Of a stretch of DNA of 64,000 bases, positions 42,336-52,814 are shown one piece after another (within the stretch, counting starts at the first letter, position 1; each line of letters begins with the position of its first letter). The DNA comes from Peptococcaceae bacterium BICA1-7 (GTDB lineage Bacteria > Bacillota > Desulfotomaculia > Desulfotomaculales > Desulfocucumaceae), in the NCBI GenBank assembly GCA_000802095.1, contig JUEB01000022.1, positions 1-64,000 on the forward strand, read 5' to 3'. The position numbers were made by a program, and so were the translations under genes. The notes beneath the pieces were generated by a model that worked only from the letters and a program-made list of their open reading frames with translations, was not told the DNA's origin and did not search any database.

Positions 42336-42378
42336 AGCGGGCGGGAGCCGGATATTATTCCGGCTTCTGCTTTTTTTA
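42336..42378 (+). terminator. Terminator at the left edge of the AT-rich cluster
   Basis: GCCGGA and TCCGGC in an extended stem with a following seven-T run. Confidence 0.8.
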
Positions 42379-42666: not shown

Positions 42667-42924
42667 ATGAATACACATGAGCTAATCAACCAGATTATCC
42701 ATGACACTGTCAAGAAATATGGTATTGCTTTAGAAACGATTACCGAGGAGAAATCTATTATAAGTGAATTACAGGCTGATTCACTTGACATAATTGAATT
42801 GATGCTGGCATTCGAAGAAAACTTTAATATTTCTATAAATGAAAAGGACATTGGCAGTATAGTCACTGTTGGAGATATTTATAGTTTTATTGAAAATGGC
42901 CTGGAGAAAGTTCAAAATCAATAA
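42667..42924 (+). CDS. Stand-alone acyl carrier protein
   Basis: 85-residue acidic four-helix protein of the ACP/PCP fold. The phosphopantetheine attachment Ser39 lies in QADSLDIIELM, matching the D-S-L-D motif of fatty-acid ACPs. Housekeeping acpP usually sits among fab genes, which are absent here; this copy is instead the first recognisable gene of a radical SAM cluster, with a fatty-acyl-AMP ligase at the other end. GAGAGGTG precedes the ATG. It likely carries the acyl chain that the cluster modifies. Confidence 0.9.
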   Translation: MNTHELINQIIHDTVKKYGIALETITEEKSIISELQADSLDIIELMLAFEENFNISINEKDIGSIVTVGDIYSFIENGLEKVQNQ

Positions 42925-43048: not shown

Positions 43049-44551
43049 ATGAAAATAACCTTAATATCACCAAAGCGGGAAAGATTTGAACAAAACAGAA
43101 TGGAATTTTGGGAATTTGGATTTATGGCTAGTACGGCAGGTCTCGGAACCAGAAAATATAGTGGCACACCTTTGGCAATACCCATCCTTGCCTCACTGAT
43201 ACCGGATAAATACGATATCGAAGTAATTGACGAAAATATCGATGAAATTGATTTTAACAGACCAACGGATCTAGTACTCTTAACATTCTTTACTACTGCT
43301 GCCACCAGGGGATATGAGATAGGGGATATATATAGAAGTAAAAATGTAAAAGTGGTTATAGGTGGCTGTCATGCCTCAATGGAACCGGATGAGACCAGTA
43401 AACATGCCGATGCTGTTTCCATAGGAGAAGCAGAGGTACTATTGCCCAGAATACTAAATGACTTCGAAAGTGGTGTACTGGCTCCCTTTTATAGGGTTGC
43501 CGAAGCAGAGAGGCCCAACCTGGATAATCAACCGGTACCGCGGTTTAATGCCTTGAAATTAGAGAATTACTTTAACCCCACTATACAAACCATGAGAGGC
43601 TGTCCCATGGGTTGCGAGTTCTGCACAGTGCGAGTTCATTGGGGAGCAAAATATCGTTATAAGCCTATTGAAAAAGTGATTAGTGAGATTGAGCTGTTAA
43701 AAAAACAATTTGGAAGAAATACTTTCATAATGATAGTTGATGATGATGTTGCTGCTAATACCACACGTTCAAAAGAGTTGTTTAAAGCATTAATACCGCT
43801 AAAAATACAGTGGATGAGCCAGGGATCGATGGCTATGGCCAAGGATGACGAATATCTTGACCTGATGGTGAAATCCGGTGGAACCAGAATGATAATGGGG
43901 TTTGAGTCAATATCAGCAGATAACCTCAAAAATATGAGGAAAAACCCAGCCAATAAATTGAACGAATTTACTGACAATATCCGTAAAATACAGTCATACG
44001 GAGTTGCCATAATTGGAGCATTTGTCTTTGGCTTTGATGGAGATGATACTACTTGTTTTGATAATACCGCCAATTTTATTATTGAAAACAGCATTGGACT
44101 TCCTCAGCTTTTTGCTTTGACGCCTTTTCCGGGAACAGCCTTAACTAAAAGGCTGGAGGAGGAAAACAGAATATTATCGAGGGACTGGAAGTATTACACC
44201 GGCTCGACAGTTCAATTTGTACCAAAACTAATGTCAGTTGGAGAATTAGAGGAAGGTTACTATCGTACAATTCAAAATGTATATTCGTATAAAAATATTT
44301 TAAAAAGGTTAACTGGGTTATGGGATCTATGGGATAAGCATGCTCAAAGAGAAGAACACATACTTGTTAAGGAAAAAATAGATGTAATATTACTTAATGA
44401 GAACTTCAGGGCCTGTGCCTATAGTTATAGAAATTGTTATGATGTTGATATCGAAGAAGAAAAACATTATAAAAATGAGATTCAAAATAAATTGAAGATG
44501 TTTCTTAAGAAAAGAAATGTGCTTATGGAAAGGATAAGACCATATGCCTGA
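43049..44551 (+). CDS. Cobalamin-binding-like radical SAM protein
   Basis: 500-residue protein with an N-terminal B12-binding-like Rossmann domain (about 1-150: IGGCHASMEPDETSKHADAVSIGEAE) and a radical SAM domain. The [4Fe-4S] cluster cysteines are Cys185, Cys189 and Cys192 in GCPMGCEFC, with a later GFESISADNLKNMRK strand and ALTPFPGT. This layout is that of the BchE/P-methylase class (B12-radical SAM). Members methylate unreactive carbons or rearrange chains. Upstream GGAG and a 124-base gap from the ACP gene suggest one transcript. Exact reaction unknown. Confidence 0.85.
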   Translation: MKITLISPKRERFEQNRMEFWEFGFMASTAGLGTRKYSGTPLAIPILASLIPDKYDIEVIDENIDEIDFNRPTDLVLLTFFTTAATRGYEIGDIYRSKNVKVVIGGCHASMEPDETSKHADAVSIGEAEVLLPRILNDFESGVLAPFYRVAEAERPNLDNQPVPRFNALKLENYFNPTIQTMRGCPMGCEFCTVRVHWGAKYRYKPIEKVISEIELLKKQFGRNTFIMIVDDDVAANTTRSKELFKALIPLKIQWMSQGSMAMAKDDEYLDLMVKSGGTRMIMGFESISADNLKNMRKNPANKLNEFTDNIRKIQSYGVAIIGAFVFGFDGDDTTCFDNTANFIIENSIGLPQLFALTPFPGTALTKRLEEENRILSRDWKYYTGSTVQFVPKLMSVGELEEGYYRTIQNVYSYKNILKRLTGLWDLWDKHAQREEHILVKEKIDVILLNENFRACAYSYRNCYDVDIEEEKHYKNEIQNKLKMFLKKRNVLMERIRPYA

Positions 44552-44575: not shown

Positions 44576-45655
44576 ATGTATAAGAATAAATATGTAAATA
44601 TATTTTCTAAAATAGCCTGGGACTTTGGCCTGCTAAAAGAAGATCTGTTGAAATCAGTGGAAAAAAAATTTGATACATCGAATAATATTATAATAACCAG
44701 AGAACTTGAGGCTAAGCCTACAACACTCTATTTAATGCAATATTTATCAGAGGGCTGCCAGGCCAATTGCGCCTTTTGTGTTCAGGGGCTATCCAGTACC
44801 AGGGAAAGAAAATCATCCTATCTGGTAGCCAATCAGCTGCTAAGATTTCCATTGGATACTATTACTCAGTTCTTAAAGGATAAAGAGCTGCCATTTAAGA
44901 GAGTTTGCATTCAAACCATACTGCATGATGAGGCTTTTGATGATTTAGTTAATCTTGTAGAGGAGTTAAAAAAAGCCACTGATTTGCCAATAAGCGCTAA
45001 TTGCACTCCGATGAGCAGGGAAAGTATAAGTAAATTAAATGACATTGGACTTGACAGGATAATAATCAATTATGAACTGGTAACACCTGAACTCTTCGAT
45101 AGGATAAGGGGAAGAGAACGTAATAGTCCATATAGTTGGGAACAGACAACCCGGGCATTGGATTACGCTATGGAAATATTCGGATATCCCAGGGTTTTAT
45201 CGCACCTGATCATAGGAATTGGCGAAACAGACCTTGATGCTTTGAAACTTATAGAAAATTTGCACAGGAAAAAAATAATCCCCTCTTTATTTGCTTTTCG
45301 ACCGCTTAAAGGGACAGATCTTGAGAATTATTCACGTGTTTCCCATGAAAGGTTTCACTGTATACAAATGGCCGCCTTTCTTATTAAAAATGATCTGACG
45401 GACCTTAAAAATATGAAATTCGACCAAGCAGGGAACCTGATTGATCCCGGGGTAGAGGAAGAAATTATCAGAAATGCTATCTATGGAGGAAAATGTTTTA
45501 TGACCAGCGGATGTCCCTGGTGTAACAGGCCAAACTATACCGTAGATCCTGGTGAACGTCACTATACTTACCCGAGAGTGCCGTCTCCCGACGAACTGTC
45601 TGATATAAAAAGAGAAATAGGCCGCCGGTGGAATTTATTTGGCGGAGATATATAA
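44576..45655 (+). CDS. LipS1-like radical SAM protein
   Basis: 359-residue radical SAM protein with cluster cysteines 61, 65 and 68 (GCQANCAFCVQG). Further on it has HLIIGIGETDLDA and FAFRPLKGTDLE. Its C-terminal SGCPWCNRPNY motif, followed by PGERHYTYPR, is the auxiliary-cluster-type end I associate with LipS1, half of the LipS1/LipS2 lipoyl-synthase system. The identification is from remembered motif pattern, not a search. GGAGGA precedes the ATG; it starts 24 bases after the previous gene and its stop overlaps the next start as TAATG. A LipS2-like gene lies 1.9 kb downstream. Confidence 0.75.
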   Translation: MYKNKYVNIFSKIAWDFGLLKEDLLKSVEKKFDTSNNIIITRELEAKPTTLYLMQYLSEGCQANCAFCVQGLSSTRERKSSYLVANQLLRFPLDTITQFLKDKELPFKRVCIQTILHDEAFDDLVNLVEELKKATDLPISANCTPMSRESISKLNDIGLDRIIINYELVTPELFDRIRGRERNSPYSWEQTTRALDYAMEIFGYPRVLSHLIIGIGETDLDALKLIENLHRKKIIPSLFAFRPLKGTDLENYSRVSHERFHCIQMAAFLIKNDLTDLKNMKFDQAGNLIDPGVEEEIIRNAIYGGKCFMTSGCPWCNRPNYTVDPGERHYTYPRVPSPDELSDIKREIGRRWNLFGGDI

Positions 45656-46959
45656 TGAGTAATTTTTTTAAGCGCTTCGGCACAAAAGCGTTATTTACAA
45701 CCGTCCCAGTCACTTCAATATCTATCGTTAATCAGGTTCCTGGACAAAGAATAGATATAAACTCTCTTAATACTGTGGAGGATTGTATTCTTCTGGCCAA
45801 TAACGAGTCCTTTCAGAGCGGAAAGATACAACCCGCTATTGGACTCCATTTCCTAAAAGAAAATATATCCTGCATCGATATATTGGAGTATCCTACCTGG
45901 GAAGAATATGAAAATACCCTTAAGAACAATTATGACATTGTAGCCATAGGGTTCTATACTATGAATTTTTATGATGCCATAAGAATGGCTAATATGGCAA
46001 AGGAATATGGTGTTAAAGAGGTGTGGGCGGGTAATTATGGAGCTATGACCCCGGGGGTAACCGATTATTTTGACCGCCGGATAATTGGATTTCCTGAAAA
46101 AGAATTAAAAATGGCCCTTGATAATGAAGTATTGCAAAGCATAAAGCATCCGGTACTTACAACCCCCTTTAGGATATTAGCCAATGAGGAAAAAGCCGGA
46201 TTTCTTATATCTAACAGAGGGTGCAAATACAATTGTGATTTTTGTTCCACATCACATTTTGCGCCCTTGGTTGAAAAAATCAGCACAGAAGAGATTGAGC
46301 GTGTGCTTGATATATATAAAGATATGGGAGTCAATTATATCATTTTATTTGATGAAACATTTTTGCAGGATAAAAATCATGCCAGGGAAACTATAAATTT
46401 ACTGCATAAAAAGGAAATGAAATGGTTTTGCACAACAAGGGCAGATTTACTGATAGGTCATGTGAGTGAACTGAAAGAAAAGGGTCTGGACGGGGTTTAT
46501 ATGGGCATTGAATCAATGAACGATGGTAATCTCAAGGATCAAAAAAAAGGAGAGTCAGTTGAAAGAATAAAAGAAGCAATTATGGAATTAACCAGGAATG
46601 AAATTTCAATATCTGGGACATATATTCTTGGCTTATTAAATGATACATCTGAATCCATAAAGTCAGATCTGGAAAAGCTACAGGATTTATCCCTATTTGT
46701 GCTGATATTTTTGGTTTTGACACCATATCCCGAGCTTCCTCAATACTTGTCCTGGAAAAATAAAGGTCTTATTATTAACGACGACTGGCGCTCATATGAC
46801 GGCATGAATTTGGTATTTCGCCACCCGAACATGAGTGTTGAAGATGTAAGAGATATTTTTGAATATGCTGTGTGTAATATTTATAGCCCCTATAATTACA
46901 ATAAACGAAGAGTGTTGCAAAGAATGCAAAAAATTAAAAGTTCAATAATACAAGGATGA
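45655..46959 (+). CDS. Second cobalamin-binding-like radical SAM protein
   Basis: 434 residues. ATG 45655 overlaps the preceding stop (TAATG), so translation is coupled; a GTG at 45628 is internal to the LipS1-like gene. The N-terminal 150 residues look like a B12-type Rossmann domain (VAIGFYTMNFYDAIRMANMA, VWAGNYGAMTP, IGFPEKELKMAL) without an obvious DxHxxG cobalamin ligand. The radical SAM motif is GCKYNCDFC (Cys190, 194, 197), followed by YIILFDETFLQD and GVYMGIESMNDGNLK. It is only distantly like the first B12-type protein, so the two probably act at different steps. Confidence 0.82.
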   Translation: MSNFFKRFGTKALFTTVPVTSISIVNQVPGQRIDINSLNTVEDCILLANNESFQSGKIQPAIGLHFLKENISCIDILEYPTWEEYENTLKNNYDIVAIGFYTMNFYDAIRMANMAKEYGVKEVWAGNYGAMTPGVTDYFDRRIIGFPEKELKMALDNEVLQSIKHPVLTTPFRILANEEKAGFLISNRGCKYNCDFCSTSHFAPLVEKISTEEIERVLDIYKDMGVNYIILFDETFLQDKNHARETINLLHKKEMKWFCTTRADLLIGHVSELKEKGLDGVYMGIESMNDGNLKDQKKGESVERIKEAIMELTRNEISISGTYILGLLNDTSESIKSDLEKLQDLSLFVLIFLVLTPYPELPQYLSWKNKGLIINDDWRSYDGMNLVFRHPNMSVEDVRDIFEYAVCNIYSPYNYNKRRVLQRMQKIKSSIIQG

Positions 46960-46981
46960 GAAATTTGAAAGGTACAAAGGA

Positions 46982-47437
46982 ATGATACTTTTACCAAGTG
47001 ACAATGGATGTTATGTTTGTGGCGTTATGAATAAAAAGGGATTCAATAACCCATTTTATGTTGATGGAGATTTTGTTGTGGCTTTTTTTGAAGGGAGTAT
47101 TGACTATAAGGGCCATGGCCCAATTCACGGCGGTGTCCCTGCAGCCCTGCTGGACGAGGCAATGGGTCTTGGAGTCACATATTCTAAAAAAATACTGTGT
47201 GTTACGGCTGAAATTACAATTCGGTACTTAAAGCCTCTTCATATAAATGGGAGTTATACTGTGCGCGGGAGGATGGTCAAGGACAGGAAACTGCTGTGTG
47301 AAGCTTACGGAGAGATTATTGATCATGAACACAACAGGTATGTAAAGGCTTTCGGTAAGTATGTGCCTCTTACAAAGGCGCAGTCCTGTGAATTATATCC
47401 CGATGTTTTTACTGACCATTTTGGTAACAGCAAGTAA
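46982..47437 (+). CDS. Hotdog-fold acyl-CoA/ACP thioesterase (PaaI/4HBT-like)
   Basis: 151-residue hotdog thioesterase that hydrolyses acyl thioesters. The active-site block is HGGVPAALLDEAMG (residues about 48-61), with the Asp/Glu pair typical of PaaI/4HBT proteins, and TAEITIRYLKPLHING strands after it. It lies 22 bases after the second B12-type gene, between LipS1-like and LipS2-like genes. In this setting it would release the modified chain from the ACP. AAGGA and GAAAGG lie just before the ATG. Confidence 0.85.
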   Translation: MILLPSDNGCYVCGVMNKKGFNNPFYVDGDFVVAFFEGSIDYKGHGPIHGGVPAALLDEAMGLGVTYSKKILCVTAEITIRYLKPLHINGSYTVRGRMVKDRKLLCEAYGEIIDHEHNRYVKAFGKYVPLTKAQSCELYPDVFTDHFGNSK

Positions 47438-47553
47438 AAGTTACCTGTTTATGGGGTCTCTTCCTCAATACATTCTTGTGAAATTGATCCAGGGTATTCC
47501 ATAAACTGTTACTACCAACTGTTTAAAGCCTGAAAAAGAGGGGTGATAATAAA

Positions 47554-48615
47554 GTGGGTGCTTCAGATTATCTGCGCATTAAATGCAGCAGCAGTCCTGT
47601 TGACTGGCTCATGGAGGAGGCACGAAATATTTCCTGGAAACATTTTGGAAAAAACATTGAACTTTACTACTCTTACTACCAGGATAAATCTAATGAAACG
47701 CAATTTACTAAGGACGCCAGGGAGAGGTATAAAGTTGATTATATTAGTAAGATAAAAAAATCACTTGTCAATGTTACACCCATCATAAGTTTATCAGGTC
47801 AGAGATGTGAGCTTAGATGCGATCACTGTAAAACAATTACACTAAGAGCCATGTATGATGCGGAAAGTCCGGAAAAATTGTATCAGTCAGCAAAATCATT
47901 TTATTTGAATGGCTCAAAAGGAATTCTTTTGTCCGCCGGTTCAAGGAAGGACGGAAGCACCCTGATAGGGCAAGAGTATAATGATACGATTAAACGTATT
48001 AAAGAGGATTTTTCCATGTATATAGGGGTGCATGCCGGTTATGTATCCCGTCAGCGGGTTAAAGAAATAAAGGAGCTTGGTGCGGATAGTATTTTAATTG
48101 ACGTTATTGGCCATCAGGAAACATTAAGTAAAGTATACCACATCGAACGCCCGCTAAGCGTTGTTGAGGAGGTCATAAGTTATACTATTGAAGAAAATAT
48201 AGATGTAATTCCACATATATGTATTGGCCTTCATTATGGAGAAATTAAGGGTGAATATGACGCAATTAAAATGCTTTCCAAATACCCATTGAAATATATA
48301 ACTTTTATAATATTGGTGCCAACCCCGGGAACTCCCATGGCATCCCTGGATCCTCCGGATATTACCAGCGTAGCCCGTGTTATGGCTTACGGAAGATTTA
48401 AATTGCCAAAGGTCATACACTCTCTGGGATGTACCAGGCCAATAGGAGTATTTGGAGAAGAAGCGGAGTTAATGGCTATCCAGTTGGGTTGCAACAGGAT
48501 TGCAGGCATATCATCTGACTTGACCATAAAAAAGTGCAAGGAACTGGGATTGAATTTCAATATTGCGTCACATTGCTGTATGATAGGTAACGGTATGTTT
48601 GATAGTTTAATATGA
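47554..48615 (+). CDS. LipS2-like radical SAM protein
   Basis: 353-residue radical SAM protein with cluster cysteines 85, 89 and 92 (RCELRCDHC). SILIDVIGHQETLSKVYHI, ICIGLHYGEIKGEYDAI and VPTPGTPMASLDPP follow the pattern I remember for LipS2, the partner of LipS1. Differences from that pattern include HCKTITLRAM in place of a Gly-rich HCGGKLLEGM-like segment, and SAGSRKDG where a GGC-type Cys is common. GTG 47554 follows GAGGGGTGAT. It makes a LipS-type pair with the gene at 44.6 kb. Function on an ACP-bound chain is inference. Confidence 0.75.
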   Translation: MGASDYLRIKCSSSPVDWLMEEARNISWKHFGKNIELYYSYYQDKSNETQFTKDARERYKVDYISKIKKSLVNVTPIISLSGQRCELRCDHCKTITLRAMYDAESPEKLYQSAKSFYLNGSKGILLSAGSRKDGSTLIGQEYNDTIKRIKEDFSMYIGVHAGYVSRQRVKEIKELGADSILIDVIGHQETLSKVYHIERPLSVVEEVISYTIEENIDVIPHICIGLHYGEIKGEYDAIKMLSKYPLKYITFIILVPTPGTPMASLDPPDITSVARVMAYGRFKLPKVIHSLGCTRPIGVFGEEAELMAIQLGCNRIAGISSDLTIKKCKELGLNFNIASHCCMIGNGMFDSLI

Positions 48616-48657
48616 TCTAATGTGTAACCAAATAAATAACAGAAAGGTGTGGTTTTA

Positions 48658-49158
48658 ATGGGAAAACAATTATTGGAGAATGTTACCCGGGAAAAAATGC
48701 TAAAAGATATGTGGTTGCTGCATGATAGTAGATGGTTCATAAAAGTAATTGGAGAATTTGGTTTCGATGCTGCAAATAAGCTCAATCAGGAGATAAATAA
48801 GTCTATCGGAAGAACTGAGATGAAACGGTTAATTAAAGAGCTTAAACGTGAAAAGATAGGCAGTGCTAAAGAACTGAAGGAAATATTTGATACAGCTGTT
48901 GAACTGTATTTACCTGATGAGCATCAATATGAATTTGAGGTTTATGATGAACATACAGTTCTCGGTAAAGTAATTAAATGCTTTATTCATAGTCACCTGG
49001 AAAAGGCCGGAACCACCAGTATCTATAAGTGCCCCGGCAAGTTAAGGTGTGATTCCTGGCTGGAGGCCTGCGGCGTTAAAGGAGAATCCATTGCTGATAA
49101 AACAGCCCAGGATTGTAATGGAAGGTGCACCATAACCTACAAAATAAATTGGGAATAA
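48658..49158 (+). CDS. DUF6125-like cysteine-containing protein
   Basis: 166-residue cytoplasmic protein resembling the DUF6125 family (related to L-2-aminothiazoline-4-carboxylate hydrolase-like proteins). The N-half has WLLHDSRWFIKVIGEFGFDAANKLNQ, a recurrent family segment, and the C-half has six cysteines including KCPGKLRCDSW, EACG and DCNGRC. Start ATG 48658 follows AAAGGTG. The function of DUF6125 is unknown. In this cluster it could bind a sulfur donor or an intermediate, but that is inference. Confidence 0.65.
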   Translation: MGKQLLENVTREKMLKDMWLLHDSRWFIKVIGEFGFDAANKLNQEINKSIGRTEMKRLIKELKREKIGSAKELKEIFDTAVELYLPDEHQYEFEVYDEHTVLGKVIKCFIHSHLEKAGTTSIYKCPGKLRCDSWLEACGVKGESIADKTAQDCNGRCTITYKINWE

Positions 49159-49251
49159 AAAAGATTTTACCTGGCAGACCATTGTTCTTAAATTGATCAG
49201 ATAAATATGCCCTTGGATTAAATGGCTGTGTATATGATATTTGAGGGATGG

Positions 49252-51000
49252 ATGACCATGAACAATTACAGTGTTTTTAATAATATGATTGATGTATTAC
49301 AGTATCAGTCAGAAGTCAAAGCAGATAAAATAGTGTATACTTTTTTAGATTACACTCTAGATGATGACTACGTTGAAAATAAAATTACATATCGCCAGTT
49401 AGAGAAAAAGGCCAGCATTGTATCCTTCTTTCTTCAGCAGCACCAGTGTTTTGGAGAAAGAGCCATATTACTTTATCCACCTGGGATAGACTATATTGTC
49501 GCATTTTTTGCCTGTTTACGGGCCGGTGTTTTGGCAGTGCCCTCCTACCCCCCATATTCCACAAAGATTTTTTCTCAATTTATTTCTATTGTTAAGGATG
49601 CTCTGCCAAAATTCGTTATTACTAATAAACTTATGGCCGAAGTGCTTAAATCTCAGTTAGGAGAGAGCCCTGATTTCCCGGATATAATATGGATCGAAAC
49701 CGATGGTCTCGATGATGAAGAATTGCATGAATATAAGCCAACACCCAATAAAATTGCATTTCTCCAGTATACCTCCGGCTCAACCTCTCAGCCAAGAGGG
49801 GTTATGGTTACTCATGATAATTTACTGCATAACCTATTTTTAATACGTGATAGTTTTCAGCATGAATCACATAGCTGTGGAGTAATATGGCTTCCTCCCT
49901 ATCATGACATGGGCCTTATTGGAGGTATATTACAACCATTGTATGCAGGCTTTCCGGTGGTTTTGATGTCACCACTGGATTTCCTAAAAAAACCGATAAG
50001 GTGGCTGCGGGCAATAACCAGCTACAGGGCGAATACCAGTGGCGGTCCTAATTTTGCTTATGAATTGTGCATAAGGAAGGTTACACCGGAACAAAGGCAG
50101 AGTCTGGATTTAAGAAGCTGGGATTTGGCCTTTAATGGTGCTGAGCTGGTACAGGCCGATACAATCGAAGAATTTGCCAAAACATTTGAGGATTGCGGTT
50201 TTAATCCCCGGGCATTTTATCCATGCTATGGGCTAGCTGAATCAACATTAATAGTAACCGGAGGATTAAAGGGGGAACTGCCTAAAATAGCGCAATTTGA
50301 TAAAGAAAGTATACTTGATAATATTGCTCTGCCTAAAAATTCACATGATGGAGGATTGCATAAACGATATGTGGGCTGTGGTTATCCCCTGCATGTGGGT
50401 GAAGTTGCAATAGTGGATCAGGAAACATGTGTAAAATTGGAACAGGGCTGTGTAGGAGAAATATGGGTAAAAAATCCCAGTGTTGCTTTTGGATACTGGA
50501 ACAATAATGATGAGACAGAGAGAATTTTTAATGCTTATCTGTCTGATACAAATGAAGGCCCTTTTCTCAGAACAGGTGATCTTGGGTTTATATATGATGG
50601 GGAGTTATTTGTAATAGGACGGATCAACGATATAATAATCCGGGGTAAAAACTACTATCCCTATGATATTGAAAAATCTGCTGAGATAAGTCACCCCTGT
50701 CTGAGAAAGGGGTGCAATGCCTTGTTTTCGGTGGGTGAAGCTGATGATATGAGAATTATTTTAATGCAAGAAATAAAAAATGGTTATGAGGATATAGATC
50801 TTAGAGAAGTTGTAAGTAGTATACGGGATTTAATTGCTTTGAACCACCAGCTATATGTTAACGAGATAGTGTTGATTAGACAGAATTCCATACCTAAAAC
50901 ATCAAGTGGTAAGATAAGAAGAAGTGCATGCAGGGAGAATTATTTGCGTAATAAATTTGAAGCTGTTTTTGGTGAACAGCAAAATCTTGACTCACTGTAA
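49252..51000 (+). CDS. Fatty-acyl-AMP ligase (FAAL)
   Basis: 582-residue adenylate-forming enzyme of the FadD32/FAAL type, which activates a fatty acid as acyl-AMP and passes it to an ACP rather than to CoA. Motifs are [16 protein letters not shown] (ATP loop), [10 protein letters not shown] (a FAAL hallmark), [20 protein letters not shown] and [18 protein letters not shown], and the catalytic Lys in [15 protein letters not shown] lies at 49243-49247, so ATG 49252 or 49258 is the likely start, not 49222. It faces the ACP across the cluster and is probably its loading enzyme. Confidence 0.9.
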
Positions 51001-51014
51001 AGGAGGCCTGTATA

Positions 51015-52205
51015 TTGCCCAGACACTGGTTTACATCCGAATCTGTAACCGAGGGACACCCCGACAAGGTGGCTGACCAGATATCCGATGCCATTCTGGA
51101 TCAGATTATCGGTCTGGATCCTGCTGCCCGGGTGGCCTGCGAGACCTTTGTCACCACCGGTCTTGTGCTGGTGGGCGGCGAGATAACCACCAGATGTTAT
51201 GTAGACATTCCACGGGTAGCACGGGAGACAGTCAGGGAGATCGGTTACACCAGAGCTAAATATGGCTTTGATTGCGACACCTGCGCAGTGATCACCTCTA
51301 TTAACGAGCAGTCTCCGGACATCGCCCTGGGAGTGGATGAGTGCCTTGAGGCCAAGGAGGGCCAGGAAGCCAACAGTGGATTAGAAGCCATGGGGGCAGG
51401 TGATCAGGGTATGATGTTCGGCTATGCCTGTAGCGAAACCCCCGAATTGATGCCCATGCCCATCTCGCTGGCCCACCATATGGCTTGGCGTCTGGCTAAT
51501 GTGCGCAAGACCAGGGAATTGCCTTACCTGCGTCCTGACGGCAAGGTGCAGGTCACAGTTGAATACGAAGAAAGCAGACCGGTCCGGGTGGATACCATCA
51601 TTGTCTCGGCTCAGCACCACCCGCGGATGGGGCAGGAGGCAATCCGGGAGGACATTATAAACAAAGTAATCAGGCCCAGTGTTCCTGAAGAAATGATCGA
51701 CTCCGGCACCCGCTTCCTGGTCAATCCTACCGGCCGGTTTGCAGTGGGTGGCCCCCAGGGCGATACTGGCCTAACCGGACGGAAGATCATTGTGGACACC
51801 TACGGAGGCATGGCCCGTCATGGCGGCGGCGCCTTTTCAGGCAAGGATCCCACCAAGGTAGACCGCTCGGCCAGCTATGCATTGCGCTATGTGGCTAAGA
51901 ACATTGTAGCCGCCGGTCTGGCAGAACGATGTGAGGTGCAGGCGGCATATGCCATAGGTGTGGCCAGACCGGTATCCATCAGGGTGGATACCTTTAATAC
52001 TGGCCGGGTGGACGAAGAAAAGCTGGTGCGGGCGGTAATGGAAGTATTCGATCTGCGGCCCGCAGCCATTATCCGTGACCTTGATTTACGTCGGCCAATA
52101 TTTAAGAACACCGCTGCTTATGGTCACTTTGGGCGGAGGGACATCTCCCTGCCCTGGGAGAGCACCAATAGGGTTAGCATGTTACGCCAGCTTTTTAATT
52201 GTTAA
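51015..52205 (+). CDS. metK: S-adenosylmethionine synthetase
   Basis: 396-residue methionine adenosyltransferase making SAM from methionine and ATP. It has [52 protein letters not shown] and the phosphate-binding [22 protein letters not shown] precedes the TTG start 14 bases after the FAAL stop, so it is probably in the same transcript, and it would supply SAM to the radical SAM enzymes. Its base composition is clearly higher in G+C than the preceding genes. Whether it is the cell's only metK cannot be seen from this window. Confidence 0.95.

Positions 52206-52739: not shown

Positions 52740-52814
<75 letters not shown>

Follow-up and report, generated by a model that had tools for sequence, protein, structure and literature searches.

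The 64-kb window analysed here (positions 1 to 64,000 of contig JUEB01000022.1 of Peptococcaceae bacterium BICA1-7) carries, within an island of low G+C content, the genes of two divergent proteins from the LipS2 and LipS1 families of split lipoyl synthases. Both proteins, here called LipS2x and LipS1x, retain the catalytic ligands of their families, coexist with a separate housekeeping LipS pair in the same genome, and are encoded among genes for an acyl carrier protein (ACP), a fatty acyl-AMP ligase (FAAL), a thioesterase, and two additional radical S-adenosylmethionine (SAM) enzymes, rSAM_A and rSAM_B. The reading that we favour, with a probability of about 0.55, is that they form a LipS2/LipS1 couple that was acquired horizontally, has no housekeeping role, and acts on an acyl chain held by the neighbouring ACP.

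LipS family membership and cluster ligands

Two LipS-type radical SAM proteins had been recognised in this locus by a first-pass annotation, and their matches to the NCBIfam models are well above chance, with the two labels reversed. The protein encoded at 44576-45655 (44.6 kb), which contains SGCPWCNRPNY, is of the LipS2 type (NF053743, E = 1.1e-68), and the one encoded at 47554-48615 (47.6 kb), which contains DVIGHQETLSKVYHI and GLHYGEIKGEYDAI, is of the LipS1 type (NF053742, E = 8.2e-59). The scores of LipS2x (231.9 bits) and LipS1x (199.4 bits) lie below the model cut-offs of 270 and 230 bits, respectively. Such a score is not diagnostic alone, since two LipS2 (197.4 and 231.3 bits) and two LipS1 proteins (224.8 and 227.4 bits) encoded in canonical lipoate loci also fall under these cut-offs.

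The auxiliary cluster is bound in Thermococcus LipS1 by C230, C276, C277, and probably H159, and in Thermococcus LipS2 by C85, C276, C279, and probably H178 (Neti et al. 2022, PMC9585515). Ligands and motifs were compared in alignments with 31 canonical LipS1 and 32 canonical LipS2 control sequences; one mis-extracted control LipS1 (L065) was excluded. LipS1x keeps the radical SAM (RS) cysteines C85/C89/C92 (Cx3Cx2C) and the auxiliary ligands C293, C341, C342, and H221, and LipS2x keeps the RS cysteines C61/C65/C68 (Cx3Cx2C) and the auxiliary ligands C111, C313, C316, and H210, all in columns that are invariant among the controls. By homology and ligand pattern, the two window proteins are thus members of the LipS1 and LipS2 superfamilies. 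Because all cluster ligands known from Thermococcus are kept, both enzymes are expected to be competent for sulfur insertion, and each should bind two clusters and donate sulfur. A LipS-like mode of working is our best guess for the pair. The activity of the LipS1 family is sulfur insertion at C6 of an 8-mercaptooctanoyl-lysyl substrate.

Sequence divergence and phylogeny

Among columns with at least 85% conservation in the controls, LipS1x is changed in 13 of 48 and LipS2x in 21 of 58, compared to control medians of 1-2 changed columns and next largest values of 11 and 9 (one mis-extracted row aside). This bears out the divergence proposed in the first-pass annotation, but most of the residues cited for it were poor evidence, and it had been placed in the 47.6-kb protein, whereas the strongest departures are found in the LipS2-type 44.6-kb protein, which had not been flagged. 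The supposed loss of a cysteine in SAGSRKDG of LipS1x is ordinary variation, as this 'SGGC' position is occupied by C/A/S/F in 14/13/3/1 canonical LipS1 sequences and is not an auxiliary-cluster ligand. In the likewise cited CKTITLRAM region after the CxxxCxxC motif, K93 occupies a variable position, but T94 is a real departure, as is A128; the controls have a glycine at these two positions in 28/31 and 31/31 sequences, respectively.

In LipS2x, the motif RVxWP is replaced by ANQLL, YRR by FHC, and NER by TVD, and P255 and N331 are also substituted. The protein has thus lost R85, V86, W88, P89, P255, Y260, R261, N322, and N331, all of them positions with no or almost no variation among the 32 controls (R85, V86, Y260, R261, and N322 in 32/32). 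The use of RVxWP, YRR, and NER as a LipS2 motif criterion was derived in this analysis and is not published.

In a concatenated tree, the window pair forms a lone long branch (length 2.72; median 0.19) outside both canonical clades, one of the host order and one with 20 members from other families of the phylum. The standard pair of the host itself nests with the nearest relatives of its order (support 100/98). A grouping of the window pair with a pair from Bathyarchaeota, prompted by a common ISWKHFGKNI stretch, was rejected by the approximately unbiased (AU) test (p = 0.013), with the caution due to long branches.

Housekeeping lipoylation is encoded elsewhere in the genome

A second, standard LipS1/LipS2 pair is encoded by adjacent genes at C33:90595-92306, directly downstream of dihydrolipoamide dehydrogenase (Lpd), and both proteins exceed the curated cut-offs (297 and 342 bits). 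LipB is encoded at C1:129400, and right after it a free-standing lipoyl domain of 76 amino acids (aa) with the motif EMLTSKA is found (C1:129048-129266; L093 1492-1722, minus strand). A search of the genome for GCV_H gave a single match at C22:56.8 kb and no true GcvH; this match is also a Biotin_lipoyl match and probably represents a biotin-carrier domain. Two further Biotin_lipoyl matches bear a biotin motif (EAMKL and ESMKM).

With the C33 pair, Lpd, LipB, and the lipoyl domain, the lipoyl target, octanoyl transfer, sulfur insertion, and reoxidation are all covered without the window pair. Since the genome thus has a separate standard pair as well as LipB beside a lipoyl domain, the window pair is not the housekeeping lipoyl synthase. 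The outcome named beforehand as contradicting a paralogous, non-housekeeping pair in an ACP/FAAL context, namely tight clustering with housekeeping LipS proteins together with being the only lipoyl synthase of the genome, did not occur.

A low-GC island upstream of metK

The pair is part of one same-strand run of genes in the order ACP, rSAM_A, LipS2x, rSAM_B, thioesterase, LipS1x, DUF6125, FAAL, and then metK, in which the ACP is followed by seven genes with intergenic gaps of at most ~125 bp (Table 1). Across about 42.4-51.0 kb, the G+C content is 35-42% (37% overall), compared to ~50% in the flanks, and it rises from ~39% to 56% at the start of metK, which itself has ~56%. The low G+C content between the flanks and the terminator-like hairpin that closes the upstream host gene give the island the appearance of an operon gained by horizontal transfer and placed in front of a native metK. 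All eight reading frames of the island are open with intact motifs, both borders are internal to the 85-kb contig, and the contamination of the genome is 1.5%. The only Rfam element near the island is a tRNA at 52743-52814. Models and C-terminal domain together place the ligase among the FAALs. Predicted structures were unusably poor for the DUF6125 protein (single-sequence fold; predicted local distance difference test score, pLDDT, 41) and for LipS2x (pLDDT 50).

Table 1. Features of the island and its borders in the 64-kb window
Feature	Position	Strand	Evidence and remarks
Terminator-like hairpin	42339..42372	+	stem of 14 bp, then a T tract; ends the upstream host gene, before the island
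ACP, 85 aa	42667..42924	+	NF002148, E = 2.2e-18; PF00550 above cut-off
ACP phosphopantetheine site, S39	within 42667..42924	+	DSL motif
rSAM_A, HpnJ/BchE-like radical SAM protein; N-terminal B12-binding-like domain, DUF4070	43049..44551	+	PF04055, PF13282; PF02310 at 31.4 bits, slightly below the cut-off of 32.1; CxxxCxxC at residue 185
LipS2x, divergent LipS2-type radical SAM enzyme, predicted to insert sulfur	44576..45655	+	NF053743
rSAM_B, HpnJ-like radical SAM protein without recognisable B12 domain	45628..46959	+	PF04055, 80 bits; start probably the ATG at 45655
PaaI-type hotdog thioesterase	46982..47437	+	PF03061, 3.9e-9
LipS1x, divergent LipS1-type radical SAM enzyme, predicted to insert sulfur	47554..48615	+	NF053742
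DUF6125 protein, Cys-rich C-terminus	48649..49158	+	PF19620, 1.2e-7
FAAL, predicted ACP loader	49222..51000	+	PRK05850, 8.8e-136; DIP2-like C-terminal domain, PF23024, 3e-10
metK, methionine adenosyltransferase	51015..52205	+	TIGR01034, 596 bits; host-like G+C content; right border of the island, probably native

Genomic context of LipS pairs

The comparison covered 30 further LipS pairs from the phylum. Of these, 29 are encoded within ~10 kb of GcvH, LplA, LipT, or Lpd, the sole exception being located at a contig end, and none (0/30) is near a FAAL or an ACP. The 64-kb window contains no GcvH, LplA, LipT, Lpd, or lipoyl domain, and a FAAL and an ACP are found instead. The C33 pair of the host has the usual lipoate neighbourhood. 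Since LipS2x lacks the RVxWP, YRR, and NER motifs and no lipoate gene is found within ~10 kb of the window pair, the name lipoyl synthase is not justified for it.

Two other LipS loci have features of their own. In one LplA/GcvH locus, an extra, distant LipS2-like radical SAM gene (L045 12690-13736; 22% identity to LipS2x) lies beside the canonical LipS2 gene. In a Bathyarchaeota locus (L075 7585-10942), LipS2 and LipS1 are encoded on either side of a gene of the deoxyhypusine synthase family, and neither GcvH nor LplA is present in the 11.8 kb covered.

Relatives of the gene cluster

The search for LipS1x orthologues covered the order (113 genomes), the phylum (398), and two other classes (26), as well as plasmids, phages, IMG/VR, and a GTDB contig scan, and it yielded only canonical pairs or nothing. 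A literature search, which mostly left out subscription journals and is therefore weak evidence for novelty, retrieved no described LipS pair associated with a FAAL or an ACP.

The closest parallel, a partial one, was obtained with rSAM_B, which matches a Streptomyces camelliae plasmid protein (33% identity, E = 1.7e-77). On this plasmid (NZ_CP115301.1 121454-128066; L078 19995-26607), two radical SAM proteins, an AMP-ligase, an ACP, a ketosynthase, and a PaaI thioesterase are encoded in a row, embedded among riboflavin and roseoflavin genes (ribA, ribC, rosB, rosC). The rSAM_B homologue, a B12-type radical SAM protein, the AMP-ligase, the ACP, and the PaaI thioesterase are common to both clusters, but the Streptomyces cluster has the ketosynthase and lacks a LipS pair and DUF6125. 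The match is strong for rSAM_B only, and the other proteins belong to the same families in the same company. Supported by this plasmid cluster, the comparison suggests that FAAL, ACP, radical SAM enzymes, and thioesterase constitute a working module, with the LipS pair and DUF6125 as additions in the window.

Other candidates were discarded. Two matches to the rSAM_B profile from the same class (G112 and G013) belong to another subfamily and adjoin a peptidase-like gene without FAAL or ACP, and rSAM_A matches on plasmids of Citrobacter, Paraclostridium, and Synechocystis likewise lack a FAAL/ACP context. In other genomes, we also observed a recurring cassette of an rSAM_B-like radical SAM protein and a Xaa-Pro-peptidase-like protein (L087 13575-16236, L089 11272-14976, L079 112-1965), joined in L087 and L089 by a ferredoxin-type 4Fe-4S protein. 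A cluster on a Citrobacter plasmid (NZ_CP134684.1; L080 13429-24815) encodes an N-acetyltransferase, a fatty acid desaturase, and a GH3-family protein alongside five radical SAM proteins.

Proposed pathway and alternative explanations

FAALs are defined by loading fatty acids onto ACP and not onto coenzyme A (CoA), and the activities that we assign to the first enzymes of the pathway follow from such family knowledge. An acyl-ACP substrate can reasonably be inferred from the genomic context, and the chain length, the order of steps, and the product are inferred as well. In the proposed scheme, the FAAL would adenylate a free fatty acid and load it onto the ACP. LipS2x would then thiolate the end of the chain and LipS1x would add the second sulfur two carbons further in, in both cases with the auxiliary [4Fe-4S] cluster as the donor. 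Additional changes to the chain might come from rSAM_A and rSAM_B, before release of a thiolated or 1,2-dithiolane fatty acid by the PaaI-type thioesterase. We propose more tentatively, at somewhat less than even odds, that this is a dedicated pathway in which the two LipS enzymes put two sulfurs into a phosphopantetheine-bound acyl chain before tailoring by the radical SAM enzymes, yielding fatty acid natural products of a new class that bear sulfur as a dithiol or dithiolane, or a carrier-bound redox arm.

Several points weigh against an acyl-ACP-directed pair. Known LipS enzymes use octanoyl-lysyl and 8-mercaptooctanoyl-lysyl substrates and not acyl-ACP (PMC9585515). Furthermore, the searches described above revealed the complete cluster in no other genome, so that the association of LipS with FAAL and ACP comes from a single locus. 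Finally, the Streptomyces cluster indicates that the FAAL/ACP module can work without sulfur insertion.

The pair could instead be a second protein-lipoylating lipoyl synthase that was acquired horizontally, is merely parked in a lipid cluster, and acts on the lipoyl domain of the host. Both proteins do keep every cluster ligand, and transfer of LipS families between lineages is documented (PMC10332631), but the standard pair already present in the genome, the absence of GcvH, LplA, LipT, and a lipoyl domain from the window, the loss of LipS2-invariant motifs, and the interleaving of both genes with those for acyl-ACP metabolism make this explanation unlikely. We regard as similarly improbable that the locus synthesises true lipoyl-ACP, with the FAAL loading octanoate onto the ACP, LipS2x and LipS1x converting it, and either transfer of the lipoyl moiety to the lipoyl domain by LipB or release of lipoic acid by the thioesterase. 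The chemistry would be that of the favoured reading, with ordinary lipoate as the product. Such a route would account for the linkage of ACP, FAAL, and thioesterase to both predicted sulfur-inserting enzymes and could draw on the LipB of the genome; the lipB product of E. coli was reportedly described by Jordan and Cronan in 2003 as a lipoyl (octanoyl)-ACP:protein transferase. It would not, however, need two additional radical SAM enzymes and DUF6125, LipB is encoded on a different contig, a housekeeping pair exists, and the divergence of LipS2x suggests another chain or carrier.

The large divergence around conserved cluster ligands would also fit a pair that no longer inserts sulfur and subjects the acyl chain to a different radical reaction, such as one via a transient C-S(cluster) intermediate that leads to C-C bond formation or chain oxidation. 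A precedent may be tetraether lipid synthase, in which a cluster sulfur presumably traps a radical at the end of the chain. We consider such a change of function rather improbable, as none of the auxiliary ligands tied to sulfur donation in LipS1 and LipS2 has been lost and the two partners have stayed together, as expected for two sulfur insertions. Least probable is a functionless locus, either in decay or produced by an error of assembly: the searches turned up no further copy of the cluster and the G+C content changes sharply at both borders, but the eight open frames with intact motifs, the position of the borders inside the contig, and the low contamination argue against it.

If acyl-ACP is indeed the substrate, a split lipoyl synthase would have been recruited from the assembly of a protein-bound cofactor to acyl-ACP chemistry, providing a route for sulfur insertion at unactivated positions of fatty chains outside lipoate biosynthesis and cautioning against labelling every LipS1/LipS2 pair as a lipoyl synthase. 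With its canonical pair and small lipoyl domain, the genome has a built-in control, which makes the substrate choice directly testable.

Comparison with known systems

The window pair represents the same two families as the LipS1/LipS2 split lipoyl synthase of Thermococcus kodakarensis (TK2109/TK2248; NF053742/NF053743), with both partners present and with the same RS Cx3Cx2C motifs and auxiliary Cys/His ligands. It differs from known LipS1/LipS2 in its identity of at most 37% to any relative found, the loss of LipS2-invariant motifs, and its gene arrangement, as the two genes are separated by two others and lie amid ACP, FAAL, and thioesterase genes with no lipoate genes nearby. Biotin synthase (BioB) also inserts sulfur by radical SAM chemistry and is distantly homologous to the window proteins (bioB model, 2.8e-13 and 1.8e-9), but the LipS models score them far higher and their ligand pattern is that of LipS. 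With its FAAL, which is 52% identical to that of Gloeothece (the top value among cyanobacterial FAALs), and a stand-alone ACP, the island resembles the FAAL/ACP starter modules of lipopeptide and polyketide clusters. Unlike these, it has no nonribosomal peptide synthetase (NRPS) or polyketide synthase (PKS), and modification of the chain presumably falls to the radical SAM enzymes.

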